This document shows positions 24,897-31,382 of a stretch of 41,410 bases of DNA, piece after piece. Positions within the stretch are counted from its first letter, which is position 1, and each line of letters opens with the position of its first letter. The notes below the pieces were generated by a model that was given only the letters and a program-made list of their open reading frames with translations, had not been told where the DNA came from and made no database searches. This stretch comes from an uncultured Arenicella sp. (GTDB lineage Bacteria; Pseudomonadota; Gammaproteobacteria; Arenicellales; Arenicellaceae), in assembly GCA_937973905.1 (NCBI GenBank), contig CALJJR010000004.1, positions 1 to 41,410 on the forward strand, read 5' to 3'. The translations under genes were made by a program, and so were the position numbers.

Positions 24897-26603
24897 TCAC
24901 TCAAGGTGCTGAACAATGAGCTGCAGACTTTGTCGGCCCTGCCATTCATTGATATCGAGCCGGTAAGCTATCCTTACTCTGGAATTTTCAGGTTCGACAT
25001 GCTCATCGAGGTATCCGAAACAGATTGCATCGATGTGCTGGCTCGAATGTTCGGGCTGCAAACGAAGTTTAAGATGGCGTTCACCAACAACCTTGGAATC
25101 GATAATTTGAAAATACCCATCAAATAATGGCTCAGGAAAGGACTGCCCCCACGGTGTACTGGTCCGCAACTGCTCCGCGAATTCCAAGGACAGATCATTT
25201 GCGCTCAAGGACCCGTCCGACCAAATCACCTTGCGCCAGTCTTTGTCACGCGTCATTTCTGCGGTCGCTTGCACAAAAAGCTCACCAAAACGCTGCAACT
25301 TAGAGCCAGATATAGAAAGACCCGCCGCCATTGCATGACCACCGAATTTATCCATAAGACCGGGGGCCAAACTATCAACGCGAACCAAAACATCACGCAC
25401 ATTAACTCCCTCCACACTTCTAGCTGAACCTTTCCATTCGCCCTCTTCGCCCGGCGCTAAAGCAACCACCGGCCGATTGGTTCTTTCTTTGATGCGCGAG
25501 GCCACCAAACCTACGACGCCCTGATGCCAAGTCTCATCAGACAACACATACGCACAGGGCGTTTCATCTTCGCCAATTGCAATATCGTCGACAATTTTTT
25601 GTGCATCATTTTGCATTCCAAGCTCTAAACTACGCCGCTCGCTATTAAGGCTGTCTAGTTCTAAGGCTATTTTGAATGCGCTGGTCTCATCGTCACTCAA
25701 CAGGCACTCAATGCCCAACGACATATCGTCCAAACGACCCGCTGCATTAAGTCTTGGCCCGACCGCAAAACCGAGATCACTGGCTGCAATGCGATCCGTA
25801 TTGCGCTTGGCAACATTCAGCAAGGCCTTGATCCCTTCGCAGGCTTTTCCAGATCGGATCCGATTCAAGCCTTGCTGTACCAAAATGCGATTATTTTGAT
25901 CCAGTGGCACAACATCTGCGACTGTACCAAGCGCTACGAGATCAAGAAACTGCGACATATTTGGTTCAGTAATTCCGCTGTCACGAAACCATCCCAAACT
26001 GCGAAGCTCGGCGCGCAGCGCCAACATGACGTAAAAAATTACCCCGACGCCAGCCAAGTTCTTACTTTTAAACCGATCACCAGGCAGATTTGGATTAACA
26101 ATCACATCGGCACTTGGAATCTCTTCACCAGGCAAATGATGATCGGTAATCAGAACCGACATACCTAGCTGCTGAGCTGCATAAACGCCATCCACGCTGT
26201 TAATGCCATTATCCACGGTGACAATAATGTCCGGGTGTTGCGCTGCTGCAACGCCAACAATCTCAGGCGACAACCCATAGCCGAATTCAAAGCGATTGGG
26301 CACCAGATATCCGACATCGCGCAAACCAAAGCTGCGCAAACTCTTAATGGCCACCGCACAAGACGTTGCGCCATCGGCATCAAAATCACCCACAATAAGC
26401 ACTTTTGCGCCAGCCGTAACCGCCTCAGCAAGTAATACGGCAGCGTCATGCACTTGCCCCAACTGGGCCGGCGGAAGTAGTCGACCCAACCCATAGTCGA
26501 GATCAGCTGGCCCGCGCAAACCTCGAGCCGCTAGTACGCGTTCAAATGCAGAAGCGTCAGACGAGAAAGAGTCTGGCAGGGGGCGTTGTTGAATATTGGT
26601 CAC
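24897..26603 (-). CDS. recJ: Single-stranded-DNA 5'-3' exonuclease RecJ
   Basis: It degrades single-stranded DNA from the 5' end in recombination and mismatch or base-excision repair. DHH-family catalytic motifs are present: GDFDADGATSC, TVDNGINSVDGV, LITDHHLPGEE and AVGPRLNAAGRLDDMS. DHHA1 is represented by DKFGGHAMAAGLSI, and an OB-like C-terminal domain follows. I prefer GTG 26603 (VTNIQQRPLPDSF), giving 568 residues, because the track's GTG at 26687 adds a non-conserved 28-residue extension into the shared promoter region. It is divergent from the carboxylase gene. ORF 24831..25127 on the other strand is a shadow. Confidence 0.93.
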   Translation of the reverse strand: MTNIQQRPLPDSFSSDASAFERVLAARGLRGPADLDYGLGRLLPPAQLGQVHDAAVLLAEAVTAGAKVLIVGDFDADGATSCAVAIKSLRSFGLRDVGYLVPNRFEFGYGLSPEIVGVAAAQHPDIIVTVDNGINSVDGVYAAQQLGMSVLITDHHLPGEEIPSADVIVNPNLPGDRFKSKNLAGVGVIFYVMLALRAELRSLGWFRDSGITEPNMSQFLDLVALGTVADVVPLDQNNRILVQQGLNRIRSGKACEGIKALLNVAKRNTDRIAASDLGFAVGPRLNAAGRLDDMSLGIECLLSDDETSAFKIALELDSLNSERRSLELGMQNDAQKIVDDIAIGEDETPCAYVLSDETWHQGVVGLVASRIKERTNRPVVALAPGEEGEWKGSARSVEGVNVRDVLVRVDSLAPGLMDKFGGHAMAAGLSISGSKLQRFGELFVQATAEMTRDKDWRKVIWSDGSLSANDLSLEFAEQLRTSTPWGQSFPEPLFDGYFQIIDSKVVGERHLKLRLQPEHSSQHIDAICFGYLDEHVEPENSRVRIAYRLDINEWQGRQSLQLIVQHLE

Positions 26604-26822
26604 TATGAGGGCTGCGTTTATGGTGATGGAGAATCGTTTGAAGCATTGGATTATGCCGCAGTCACTGGAAATCAGGAAATCAGGCACTACGATACAGAAA
26701 TCAGGTAAAATCGACGCCTACTCAAACCAGCCGCGTTCCGCGTGAGCTGTATAAGAAAGACAACACGACCCTCAGACATTCGCTCCTGGCCTTGCCGTCA
26801 GCTGCGTGACCATGAATCAAAG

Positions 26823-29800
26823 ATGGAAATTAAAGATACACAAGTCAGTCTTTTTGACGATATAGAACACCGTGCTCAAAACTTTGCTCTGAGTGGAGCA
26901 GAACGGCCGTTTGAATGGCACAACGAAATTGTCGGTCTGTTGAGCGAGGAAGAAATTGAACGTACTCGCAAAGCGTTACATAAACTCGATGTTGATGAGT
27001 ATGTTGCACAAGCTCTAGAACCTGCCGAATCAGCCAAACGCCCGAGCGCGAAGGATACGCTTGGCCGCGTCAAAGGCAAAGTTCACGCGGAATTTGAGCT
27101 TGGCCCTCTGTACAGCGTTGAGATGAACGTTGAACATCAAGGGGCGGTAAAACGAGTCGGGTTCATTGCCCAAAACCGCAATATTAATAACGGGGTATGG
27201 GGGCCAGAGCATCACCTCGAAGCCTGTCGTTTGGCTGAGGAATTCGCCGAACGCAATGTTCCGATTATTACTCTAATGGACACCCCCGGCGCCGATGCCG
27301 GCACCGAGGCCAACGCCAACAATCAAGCCCATTCGATTTCTCGATTAATTGCAGTAATGGCGGCATCAAAAATGCCCAGCATCGGCATTATTTATGGGTT
27401 TGGTTACTCTGGTGGGGCAATTCCGCTGGCAACAACAAACTTATTATTCGCGGTTAGAGATGGTGTGTTCAATACCATTCAACCCAAAGGCCTCGCTAAC
27501 ATTGCTCGACAATACAATTTGTCATGGCAAGAAAGCGCTCGATATGTTGGTGTCTCACCATCGGAGCTTTACCGCAGCGGAGCAATCGATGGAGTAATCG
27601 ATTGGGACCCAATGGATAAAGACGCAGAGTTGGCGAACCTTAGCGCGGCAATTTTTACCGGCTTAGAAAAAATAGCTGCAGCAGCGAAACAAGAGGTATT
27701 GGAAAATCCCTTGGTAGCAAATGACTATCTTACCAAAGTCAGAACCGAGCGACCGCATAAACAAGCGTTTGAAAGATTGCAGCGCGAGGCTAACTTTTTG
27801 GTTGATCGCGGTATTAGCGACTTCCCGAGTGTTTATGCTCATGCGCTGCAGTACCAGCGTTCGGTTGCCCTACGTTGCCGTATTCGAGCTACTTCGTTGG
27901 AAGCATATGGCCGCTTGGCTGATGAAGAAATACCCAAAGGCGACTTAGAACAACGCATGCAAGCCTTGCGTGAAGAGTCTTTTCAACGCTGGTTGGCAGA
28001 TCCAGAAAAGTTGGTTTACAACGATCAACTCTCAAAAGCATGGTCGTCACTAAAACAAAAACAATCTGAGCTCGAAACCGAGCGTAACCGGATCACCGCC
28101 TTAATCTTGGGCGATCCGCAAAGCAATTATGAAGATGCTAAGCTGCATTTTTGCTATGTGACCTGTCTATATTTATACAATCGCTGGAAATCCGACGCAG
28201 CGTTTAACTTCATCGAAATTAGCCGTCTCGTTCAAACCGGTAATCCTGAAGCAAAAGACGCTTTTGATCTTTCTGATCAGGATGTGACGCTGCTCGATAC
28301 GCTGTACTCGCCGGCGTTGCGAGAAAGCATGCAGTTGCAGTTCCGCAACATGCTGGTTTTTGATGCGCTGTATAACAACATCGTCAATAACTTTGGCGAA
28401 ATTGCCGAAGAATCCAAGCAATTTCAGTCTTTATCGGAAGACACCCTACGCAGAATTCTCGACACCTCATTAGAAAAGGTTGCTTCTTCAATCGATCATT
28501 CGATCGAGACCAACACCGACGCAGAGGCCGTGCCAGGCGATATCAAAGCGCAATTCGCTAATTGGCTGAGCTACTTTGTTAAATACGATAAACGCGGCGA
28601 TTTTTTAAAGGACGTCGAAGAATGGAAACGCGTTAACTTTCCGCGACTGTCTGACTCATTACTGGTCTTGATTACCTATTTCTTCGAGACTTTGGTACCA
28701 CGCTTTATCGACGCACAAATGCAGGGCAAAAGCTATAACGGCCAGATTAACCCAGGTCGAATTGGCAAGCGTAAAGACTTTTGGAACCAGCTCAATATTG
28801 CGTATCAAGACTTACTGATCCAAAGGGTGCTCACTTCATTCAAGCGCCAGAAGCTCACAACTGTTGCTGCGATTCGTGAAGCCCTATTCCAAAATTTTGA
28901 AGAGACTCACGCGAACTTAATGACCGCCAACCCGGTGTCATTCCCCGGGTTTCGACAGTCTATTGAAAAAGCACTCAAGAACGACATCTCTCCCTGCGGC
29001 GTGATCACCGGCATTGGTGAGCTTGAACTTAGCGATGGCAAAACAGCTAAAGTTGGTGCCGTTATTTCCAACGTCGGCTTCCAGGCTGGCGCTTTTGACA
29101 TGGCGGGCGCGGTTAAAGTGTGCGCACTTTTAAGTGATTGTGCAAAACGTGGCTTACCCGTGGTGGGTTTCGTATCGTCTGGCGGCATGCAAACTAAAGA
29201 AGGGCCAAATTCCTTATTCTCAATGGCCATTACCAATGACCGGATCACTCACTTTATATCGGAAACTGGTTTACCGGTGATCGTTTTTGGTTTCGGCGAT
29301 TGCACGGGAGGCTCGCAAGCCAGCTTCGTAACGCATCCGCTCGTCCATACTTACTATTTCAGCGGTACCGACATGCCGTTCGCCGGGCGAGTTGTCGTAC
29401 CATCATTTTTACCCTCGATGGCTACAACCTCCAATTATCTGGTCAAGACGCCGGGCGCCATGCAAGGCTTGGTTAAACACCCGTTTCATGAAGGTTTAGA
29501 TGCAAAGCTTCGTGAAGTTGACCCAGAGATAGCTTTACCTGACACCACAGTAGGTGAAGTTGTCAGCCAGGTTCTGGCCGGCACTGCTAGCGTGGACAGA
29601 GAGCCTGAAGAACGAAAAATCCATCGCGCCGTCGACATGATGGGCCCGATTGATAAAGTACTTATCCACGCTCGTGGTTGCACTGCGGTAAAGCTGATCC
29701 GCATCGCGCAACAGCGTGGTCACGCAGTTCTGCTAGTTCAGTCTGACCCCGATATGGAATCTGCACCTGCCGACATGTTAGGCGAGCGTGACGAGCTTGT

Positions 29801-31382
29801 TTGCCTAGGTGGTCAAACGCCTGGCGAAAGCTACTTGAATGCAGATTCAGTGGTTGCTATTGCGCGCAACAGACAGGCCACGGCCCTGCACCCTGGCATC
29901 GGTTTTCTCTCAGAAAACGCCGCGTTTGCCAGATTGTGCCGCGCTAATAATTTAAATTTCATCGGCCCCAAAGCGTCGTCGATGGACACCATGGGCAACA
30001 AATCCAATGCAATTTCGACCGCAATGTCGAACAATGTACCAGTGGTGCCAGGGTCACACGGTATTTTAACCAGCGCTGAAGCGACTGCCGCGGTGGCCGA
30101 AGAGATCGGTTATCCAGTTTTACTAAAGGCTGTGCACGGTGGTGGCGGCAAAGGCATCAAAGTGGTGCGTAGCGCCGCAGAGGTAAAGTCAGCATTCAGC
30201 ACGGTATTCAGCGAAGCTCGCAGCGCCTTCGGCAACGGCGATCTTTATCTCGAGAAGTTCGTTGAATCAATGCGGCACATCGAAGTGCAAATTCTACGCG
30301 ACTCTCATGGCAACACCAAGGTGCTCGGCTTACGTGATTGCACGGTGCAACGCAATAACCAAAAGGTCCTAGAAGAGTCTGGCTCAACCATGCTGCCAAA
30401 GAAGCTTGAGCAACAAGCTTACGACTGCGCCGCTGACTTAGCCAACGCTGTGGATTATTTTGGCGCCGGTACAGTTGAGTTTATTTATGACCTTAGCTCA
30501 GACGCGATTTATTTCATGGAAATGAATACCCGTCTACAGGTCGAACACCCGGTCACCGAGTGGACCTCGGGTATTTCAATCGTCAGTCAACAATATGCAA
30601 TTGCGCAGGGTGAATCGATTGCGGATTTAAAACCAAAGAACAAAGGCTTCTCAATTGAAGCTCGGATCGTGGCGGAGAAAGCCAGATTAGATGATGAAGG
30701 TGCGGTAGATTTTCTACCCACGCCCGGAAAAGTTATCGAATGCCGTTTTCCCGAGCATCGTGATGATGTTGAGGTGATCGCCGCGGTCAATGAAGGCAAA
30801 ACAATTTCCCCTTATTACGACAGCATGATTGCGCAGTTAATCGTTCATGGTAGTAGCCGGAAGGACGCCATAAAACGTTTGCTATCGGCCTTAGATGAGA
30901 CAACCATTAAAGGTGTCTGCACTAACATCTCGTTGCTGAAACGTATTCTTAACGACAAGGTATTTGTTAAGGGTGACTACGACACGAAATACCTACCAAA
31001 ACTCTTGGAAACCCTCGATAAGGATGTCCTGATCGAAGAAATGTCCTACACAGGAGTTGAATCATCAGCCAGCAATCTGGATGATCTTAGAATTCAAGGC
31101 ACCGATGAAATCAAAGTAATCTCGCCAATGACCGGGATTTTCTATACCACGCCATCACCAAATGAGCCCCCATTTGTAAAAGCTGGCGAAAAAATCAGCA
31201 GCAAAGACACCTTGTGTCAAATTGAGGCGATGAAACTTTTCACACACATTTCGCTGACTAGCGTCCCAGGTGCTGGGGAGATTTTTGCCGAAGACTCTAA
31301 CTATGAGATCGTTCGTGTTAACCAAGCGAACAACGCTCAAGTAAACACCGGTGATCTGCTCTTTGTAGTAAAACCAGCGTAA
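26823..31382 (+). CDS. Single-chain multidomain biotin-dependent carboxylase (acetyl/acyl-CoA carboxylase family)
   Basis: One 1519-aa chain carries every part of an acyl-CoA carboxylase. About 90-275 resembles the carboxyltransferase alpha half AccA (PIITLMDTPGADAGTEAN, YGFGYSGGAIPLATTN). About 290-720 matches no domain I recognise and looks mostly helical. About 725-920 resembles the beta half AccD (VGFVSSGGMQTKEGPNSLFS, FGDCTGGSQASF), without the AccD zinc finger. About 945-1400 is a biotin carboxylase with ATP-grasp motifs HGGGGKGIKVV and EMNTRLQVEHPVTEW. The C-terminal ~90 residues are a BCCP domain whose biotin lysine is K1471 in IEAMKLF. In fused acyl-CoA carboxyltransferases the beta-like half usually comes first; here the order is reversed and split by a long insert. 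The substrate (acetyl-, propionyl- or longer acyl-CoA) is unknown. ATG 26823 is preferred over the track's GTG 26742. Confidence 0.9.
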   Translation: MEIKDTQVSLFDDIEHRAQNFALSGAERPFEWHNEIVGLLSEEEIERTRKALHKLDVDEYVAQALEPAESAKRPSAKDTLGRVKGKVHAEFELGPLYSVEMNVEHQGAVKRVGFIAQNRNINNGVWGPEHHLEACRLAEEFAERNVPIITLMDTPGADAGTEANANNQAHSISRLIAVMAASKMPSIGIIYGFGYSGGAIPLATTNLLFAVRDGVFNTIQPKGLANIARQYNLSWQESARYVGVSPSELYRSGAIDGVIDWDPMDKDAELANLSAAIFTGLEKIAAAAKQEVLENPLVANDYLTKVRTERPHKQAFERLQREANFLVDRGISDFPSVYAHALQYQRSVALRCRIRATSLEAYGRLADEEIPKGDLEQRMQALREESFQRWLADPEKLVYNDQLSKAWSSLKQKQSELETERNRITALILGDPQSNYEDAKLHFCYVTCLYLYNRWKSDAAFNFIEISRLVQTGNPEAKDAFDLSDQDVTLLDTLYSPALRESMQLQFRNMLVFDALYNNIVNNFGEIAEESKQFQSLSEDTLRRILDTSLEKVASSIDHSIETNTDAEAVPGDIKAQFANWLSYFVKYDKRGDFLKDVEEWKRVNFPRLSDSLLVLITYFFETLVPRFIDAQMQGKSYNGQINPGRIGKRKDFWNQLNIAYQDLLIQRVLTSFKRQKLTTVAAIREALFQNFEETHANLMTANPVSFPGFRQSIEKALKNDISPCGVITGIGELELSDGKTAKVGAVISNVGFQAGAFDMAGAVKVCALLSDCAKRGLPVVGFVSSGGMQTKEGPNSLFSMAITNDRITHFISETGLPVIVFGFGDCTGGSQASFVTHPLVHTYYFSGTDMPFAGRVVVPSFLPSMATTSNYLVKTPGAMQGLVKHPFHEGLDAKLREVDPEIALPDTTVGEVVSQVLAGTASVDREPEERKIHRAVDMMGPIDKVLIHARGCTAVKLIRIAQQRGHAVLLVQSDPDMESAPADMLGERDELVCLGGQTPGESYLNADSVVAIARNRQATALHPGIGFLSENAAFARLCRANNLNFIGPKASSMDTMGNKSNAISTAMSNNVPVVPGSHGILTSAEATAAVAEEIGYPVLLKAVHGGGGKGIKVVRSAAEVKSAFSTVFSEARSAFGNGDLYLEKFVESMRHIEVQILRDSHGNTKVLGLRDCTVQRNNQKVLEESGSTMLPKKLEQQAYDCAADLANAVDYFGAGTVEFIYDLSSDAIYFMEMNTRLQVEHPVTEWTSGISIVSQQYAIAQGESIADLKPKNKGFSIEARIVAEKARLDDEGAVDFLPTPGKVIECRFPEHRDDVEVIAAVNEGKTISPYYDSMIAQLIVHGSSRKDAIKRLLSALDETTIKGVCTNISLLKRILNDKVFVKGDYDTKYLPKLLETLDKDVLIEEMSYTGVESSASNLDDLRIQGTDEIKVISPMTGIFYTTPSPNEPPFVKAGEKISSKDTLCQIEAMKLFTHISLTSVPGAGEIFAEDSNYEIVRVNQANNAQVNTGDLLFVVKPA

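Follow-up and report, generated by a model that had tools for sequence, protein, structure and literature searches.

Acetyl-CoA carboxylase, an antibacterial target, is the essential enzyme that starts fatty-acid synthesis. In the stretch of DNA analysed here (the window, 41,410 nucleotides from an uncultured Arenicella sp.), one open reading frame joins AccA-like, AccD-like, biotin carboxylase (BC) and BCCP domains, which raises the question of which carboxylase it encodes and how it relates to separate accA, accB, accC and accD genes. We conclude with high confidence that the product is a predicted acetyl-CoA carboxylase of the biotin-dependent, single-chain type, AccS (AccADCB), which is very probably the only one of its genome and replaces the four separate subunits.

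The accS (accADCB) reading frame extends from 26823 to 31382 on the forward strand, begins with an ATG at 26823, contains no internal stops and encodes 1519 aa. Translation might alternatively start at an in-frame GTG at 26742, which would add 27 aa; the ATG is most likely the true start, since alignments with homologues begin at about residue 6-10. Promoter and terminator scans around accS gave matches at chance level only. According to Pfam and TIGRFAM profiles, the chain consists of an AccA-like carboxyltransferase (CT) domain (CT-alpha), a central region, an AccD-like domain (CT-beta), BC and BCCP. The Carboxyl_trans family (PF01039) matched two stretches of the chain (E 3e-17), and the best one, residues 111-234, corresponded to profile positions 295-422, i.e. 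to the alpha half. Because this half is N-terminal and the beta half, also matched by TIGR00515, follows downstream, the order alpha, central, beta, BC, BCCP was confirmed. The domain order given in the initial annotation, with carboxyltransferase in the first approximately 300 residues, was thus upheld.

The CT-alpha domain (residues about 86-295; 27078-27707, forward strand, as are all parts of the gene) was matched by ACCA (PF03255) over residues 117-294 (E 9e-25), contains the motifs DTPGA (153) and SGGA (196) and shares 25% identity with an AccA from the same order (E 7e-21). The central region (residues 296-700; 27708-28922) gave no Pfam family above cut-off; a weak match to LepB_N lay below the cut-off of that model and was rejected. 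Across 54 homologues, 40 of its 405 residues are invariant, and we infer that it forms a family-specific scaffold between the two CT halves. In 20 homologues, e.g. L040, L043, L051 and L070, residue 473 is followed by 90-120 extra residues; judged by homologue length, this insertion seems limited to the Oceanospirillaceae/Pseudomonadales part of the AccS tree.

The CT-beta domain (residues about 701-935; 28923-29627) is the weakest-scoring assignment: PF01039 positions 33-146 matched 28956-29315 (E 1.3e-4), TIGR00515 (accD) matched 28890-29474 (E 7e-10) and BLASTP against AccD gave E 4e-6. The motifs SSGGMQTKEG (785) and TGGSQASF (828) are retained, and 64 of 235 residues are invariant in the 54 homologues. 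When cysteines were read directly from the sequences, this half had no CxxC...CxxC four-cysteine zinc ribbon, which the AccD of a sister genus has. The BC domain (residues about 942-1397; 29646-31013) scored up to 488 bits with accC models and was covered by Biotin_carb_N (943-1054), CPSase_L_D2 (1060-1266) and Biotin_carb_C (1279-1392); its motifs are GGGGKGIK (1106), RDCTVQRNNQK (1171) and EMNTRLQVEHPVTE (1233). For the BCCP domain (residues about 1427-1518; 31101-31376), matches were obtained with Biotin_lipoyl (residues 1432-1477, E 2e-7) and TIGR00531 (E 1e-16), and the AccB-type segment SPMTGIFYTTPSPNEPPF is present. The biotinyl lysine, K1471 within EAMK (codon 31233-31235), is invariant in 54 of 54 full-length homologues, which also keep DTPGA, SGGA, SSGGMQ, TGG.QASF, the ATP-grasp glycine loop and EMNTR.QVEHPVTE.

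A sequence search of the PDB returned a single full-length match, 9kkm (and 9w4a), with 1618 bits over residues 7-1518. The title of these entries is "Acetyl-CoA carboxylase multifunctional enzyme AccADCB", and they were also the sole significant match to the central region alone (277 bits, E 2e-81). Judging from name and length, they presumably represent the Shewanella oneidensis protein; a literature search found no paper citing 9kkm or 9w4a. AccS of S. oneidensis has been published as a biotinylated single-chain ACCase of approximately 170 kDa, and low AccS levels cause a growth defect that is relieved by E. coli accA, accD and accBC (PMC11602165). The Arenicella chain has the same domain order and is collinear over its full length (1519 aa vs 1517 aa). 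The chain agrees with AccS/AccADCB in its domain order, in homology along the full length (central region included), in its catalytic motifs and in the biotinyl lysine. The acetyl-CoA carboxylase role has been shown by others in Shewanella, the corresponding activity is predicted for the Arenicella protein, and its substrate is most likely acetyl-CoA rather than an open 'acyl-CoA'. An 'accADCB' mentioned for Candidatus Berkiella (PMC9803151) was considered as a further fusion and rejected, as it is shorthand in a gene list with no sign of fusion.

Compared with other carboxylases, the chain shares homologous catalytic domains and motifs with the heteromeric AccA/AccB/AccC/AccD enzyme of the E. 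coli type, which however consists of four chains with an AccD zinc ribbon and no central region, whereas here one chain has a central region and no ribbon. Fused carboxyltransferases of the PccB/MccB type likewise carry both CT halves on one chain, but with the beta half first and BC-BCCP on a separate chain; here alpha comes first and BC is included. Eukaryotic ACC and bacterial single-chain LCC also combine all functions in one chain, with BC first and CT last, the beta half leading. By Pfam, the Arenicella chain has neither the N-terminal BC and C-terminal CT of the ACC/LCC type nor the beta-before-alpha order without BC of the PccB type, and the initial annotation was right to set its order apart from fused carboxyltransferases, LCC and eukaryotic ACC. 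Its suggestion of a distinct holoenzyme architecture does not hold as a novelty: the A-D-C-B arrangement, though real and unusual, had been described, named and structurally solved in a relative before (9kkm, 9w4a), and the authors of the AccS study had already pointed out that its domain order differs from the eukaryotic one (PMC11602165).

The gene neighbourhood differs from that of Shewanella, where the LysR regulator gene accR is divergent from accS, an arrangement that is found in some further genera and does not define AccS. Here, the place of accR is occupied by recJ (24897-26687, reverse strand; RecJ_OB, DHH and DHHA1 domains), and accS is followed by an amidohydrolase gene; thus, the accR-accS pair is not conserved at this locus. 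LysR-like genes were recognised by eye downstream of accS, on its strand, at two other loci (L040:12963-13859 and L070:12977-13912); a second regulator has been reported in a like position in other genera (PMC11602165). Elsewhere in the window, a gene for a PolB-type 3'-5' exonuclease-like protein (PF10108; 22341-24034) overlaps the end of a same-strand gene for a PLP-dependent enzyme, with bounds taken from mechanical ORF calls.

The initial annotation had also proposed a search for accA, accB, accC and accD elsewhere in the genome, a draft of an Arenicella relative comprising 3.38 Mb in 231 contigs at 88.75% completeness. Profile searches of this draft gave six PF01039, four Biotin_carb_C and six BCCP-model matches, and no separate accA, accB, accC or accD was detected at this level of completeness. 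The remaining carboxylase matches belong to a PCC pair (C229), MCC alpha, a BCCP-CT protein (C81), pyruvate carboxylase (C133) and an OadA-like protein (C47). Two apparent hits, accA on C97 and accD on C219, were rejected; both are CT fragments at contig ends covering complementary halves of PF01039 (186-484 and 2-182), the C97 fragment adjoins the MCC-alpha gene, and most simply the two are one MCC-beta gene apparently split by assembly. The BCCP-CT protein (C81:18004-19869, also L090:6005-7870) is 622 aa long and lacks BC; its N-terminal biotinyl domain precedes a complete carboxyltransferase. Frames of a similar kind, 587-614 aa in length, are present in other Arenicellaceae genomes. Since no separate subunit was detectable, this genome very probably has no acetyl-CoA carboxylase besides AccS. 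Replacement of the separate subunits, which is common in AccS carriers and not required of them, is therefore found here as well, in a genome that is 88.75% complete.

AccS was found in 19 of the 21 Arenicellaceae genomes, although some have only fragments of it at contig ends. No accA, accB or accD exceeded the cut-off in any of the 19, several of which are 98-99% complete in few contigs. Only one Arenicellaceae genome (G018) has a full separate acc set, and it has no AccS; in the last one (G009, 78% complete) neither system was seen. AccS and the separate subunits are thus mutually exclusive across Arenicellaceae, in 19 genomes against one. Of the 109 genomes of the whole order, 83 exceeded the accA cut-off, and no AccS carrier is among them.

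Three other explanations were weighed against this reading. The source is a fragmented draft, and the fusion might have arisen by assembly or frameshift error; it is no such artefact, since the same full-length chain was recovered from more than 50 Gammaproteobacteria loci, on contigs that include those of Psychromonas and Pseudomaricurvus isolates, and from a PDB entry, so that the probability left for this explanation is negligible. A secondary role beside a canonical accABCD missed by the draft could be envisaged, as seven other AccS genomes retain canonical accA and accB and the own genome is 88.75% complete. At this completeness a single missing subunit gene could be an assembly gap, but chance absence of all four, also from near-complete congeners, is unlikely; with the 19 AccS-bearing Arenicellaceae devoid of accA, accB and accD over the cut-off, we regard this role as very improbable.

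Slightly less remote, yet still improbable, is that the enzyme has a broader or different acyl-CoA specificity, with propionyl- or longer acyl-CoA as substrate, and is not the acetyl-CoA carboxylase of fatty-acid synthesis. The divergent sequence and order of the CT halves and the weak score of the AccD-like half speak for it. The CT halves nevertheless resemble AccA and AccD and the BCCP resembles AccB, the genome holds separate PCC and MCC yet no second acetyl-CoA carboxylase, and E. coli ACC rescues growth of S. oneidensis at low AccS (PMC11602165). The acetyl-CoA carboxylase AccS therefore remains the preferred identification.

By the mechanism proposed for AccS, the BC domain would use ATP and bicarbonate to carboxylate the biotin on K1471 of the C-terminal BCCP, which would then swing to a CT site built from the AccA-like and AccD-like domains. 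There, the carboxyl group would be transferred to acetyl-CoA, and the malonyl-CoA so formed would enter fatty-acid synthesis. Judged by analogy to other carboxyltransferases, formation of the CT sites should require at least a homodimer.

The wider sample comprised 33 AccS genomes of the genome collection, two of them identical to G002 and G020. No accA over the cut-off was present in 26 of the 33; the other seven (G109, G114, G116, G117, G118, G124 and G141) had accA and, in every case, also accB. These seven, which are more distant than the Arenicellaceae genomes, are Pseudomaricurvus, a Granulosicoccaceae bin, a Bugula symbiont and four members of the Woeseiaceae clade in the tree. In the genome G132, which bears AccS and gave no accA above the cut-off, a stand-alone AccB-like gene is still present (C9:159784-160209, 137 bits). 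In the AccS tree (FastTree, midpoint root), the protein studied here groups with Arenicella and adjoins the Pseudomaricurvus/Granulosicoccaceae group. The distribution would fit a history in which AccS was gained first and the canonical genes were then lost, perhaps with lateral transfer. We tentatively consider, at somewhat less than an even chance, that AccS may be a transferable one-gene replacement of the four-gene acetyl-CoA carboxylase, existing beside it in some lineages, with the canonical genes lost in others. As part of the same tentative reading, both systems may have been kept in Woeseiaceae, Granulosicoccaceae and Pseudomaricurvus, and the canonical genes lost in Arenicellaceae, Psychromonas and Oleispira and its relatives.

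A second, single-chain solution with another domain order shows how the essential acetyl-CoA carboxylase can be rebuilt. The AccS solution itself was already published and solved, and what is added here is its distribution, exclusive in some families and beside the canonical enzyme in others. If the replacement reading is true, genomes with both systems would make it possible to test directly why an essential enzyme comes to be replaced.
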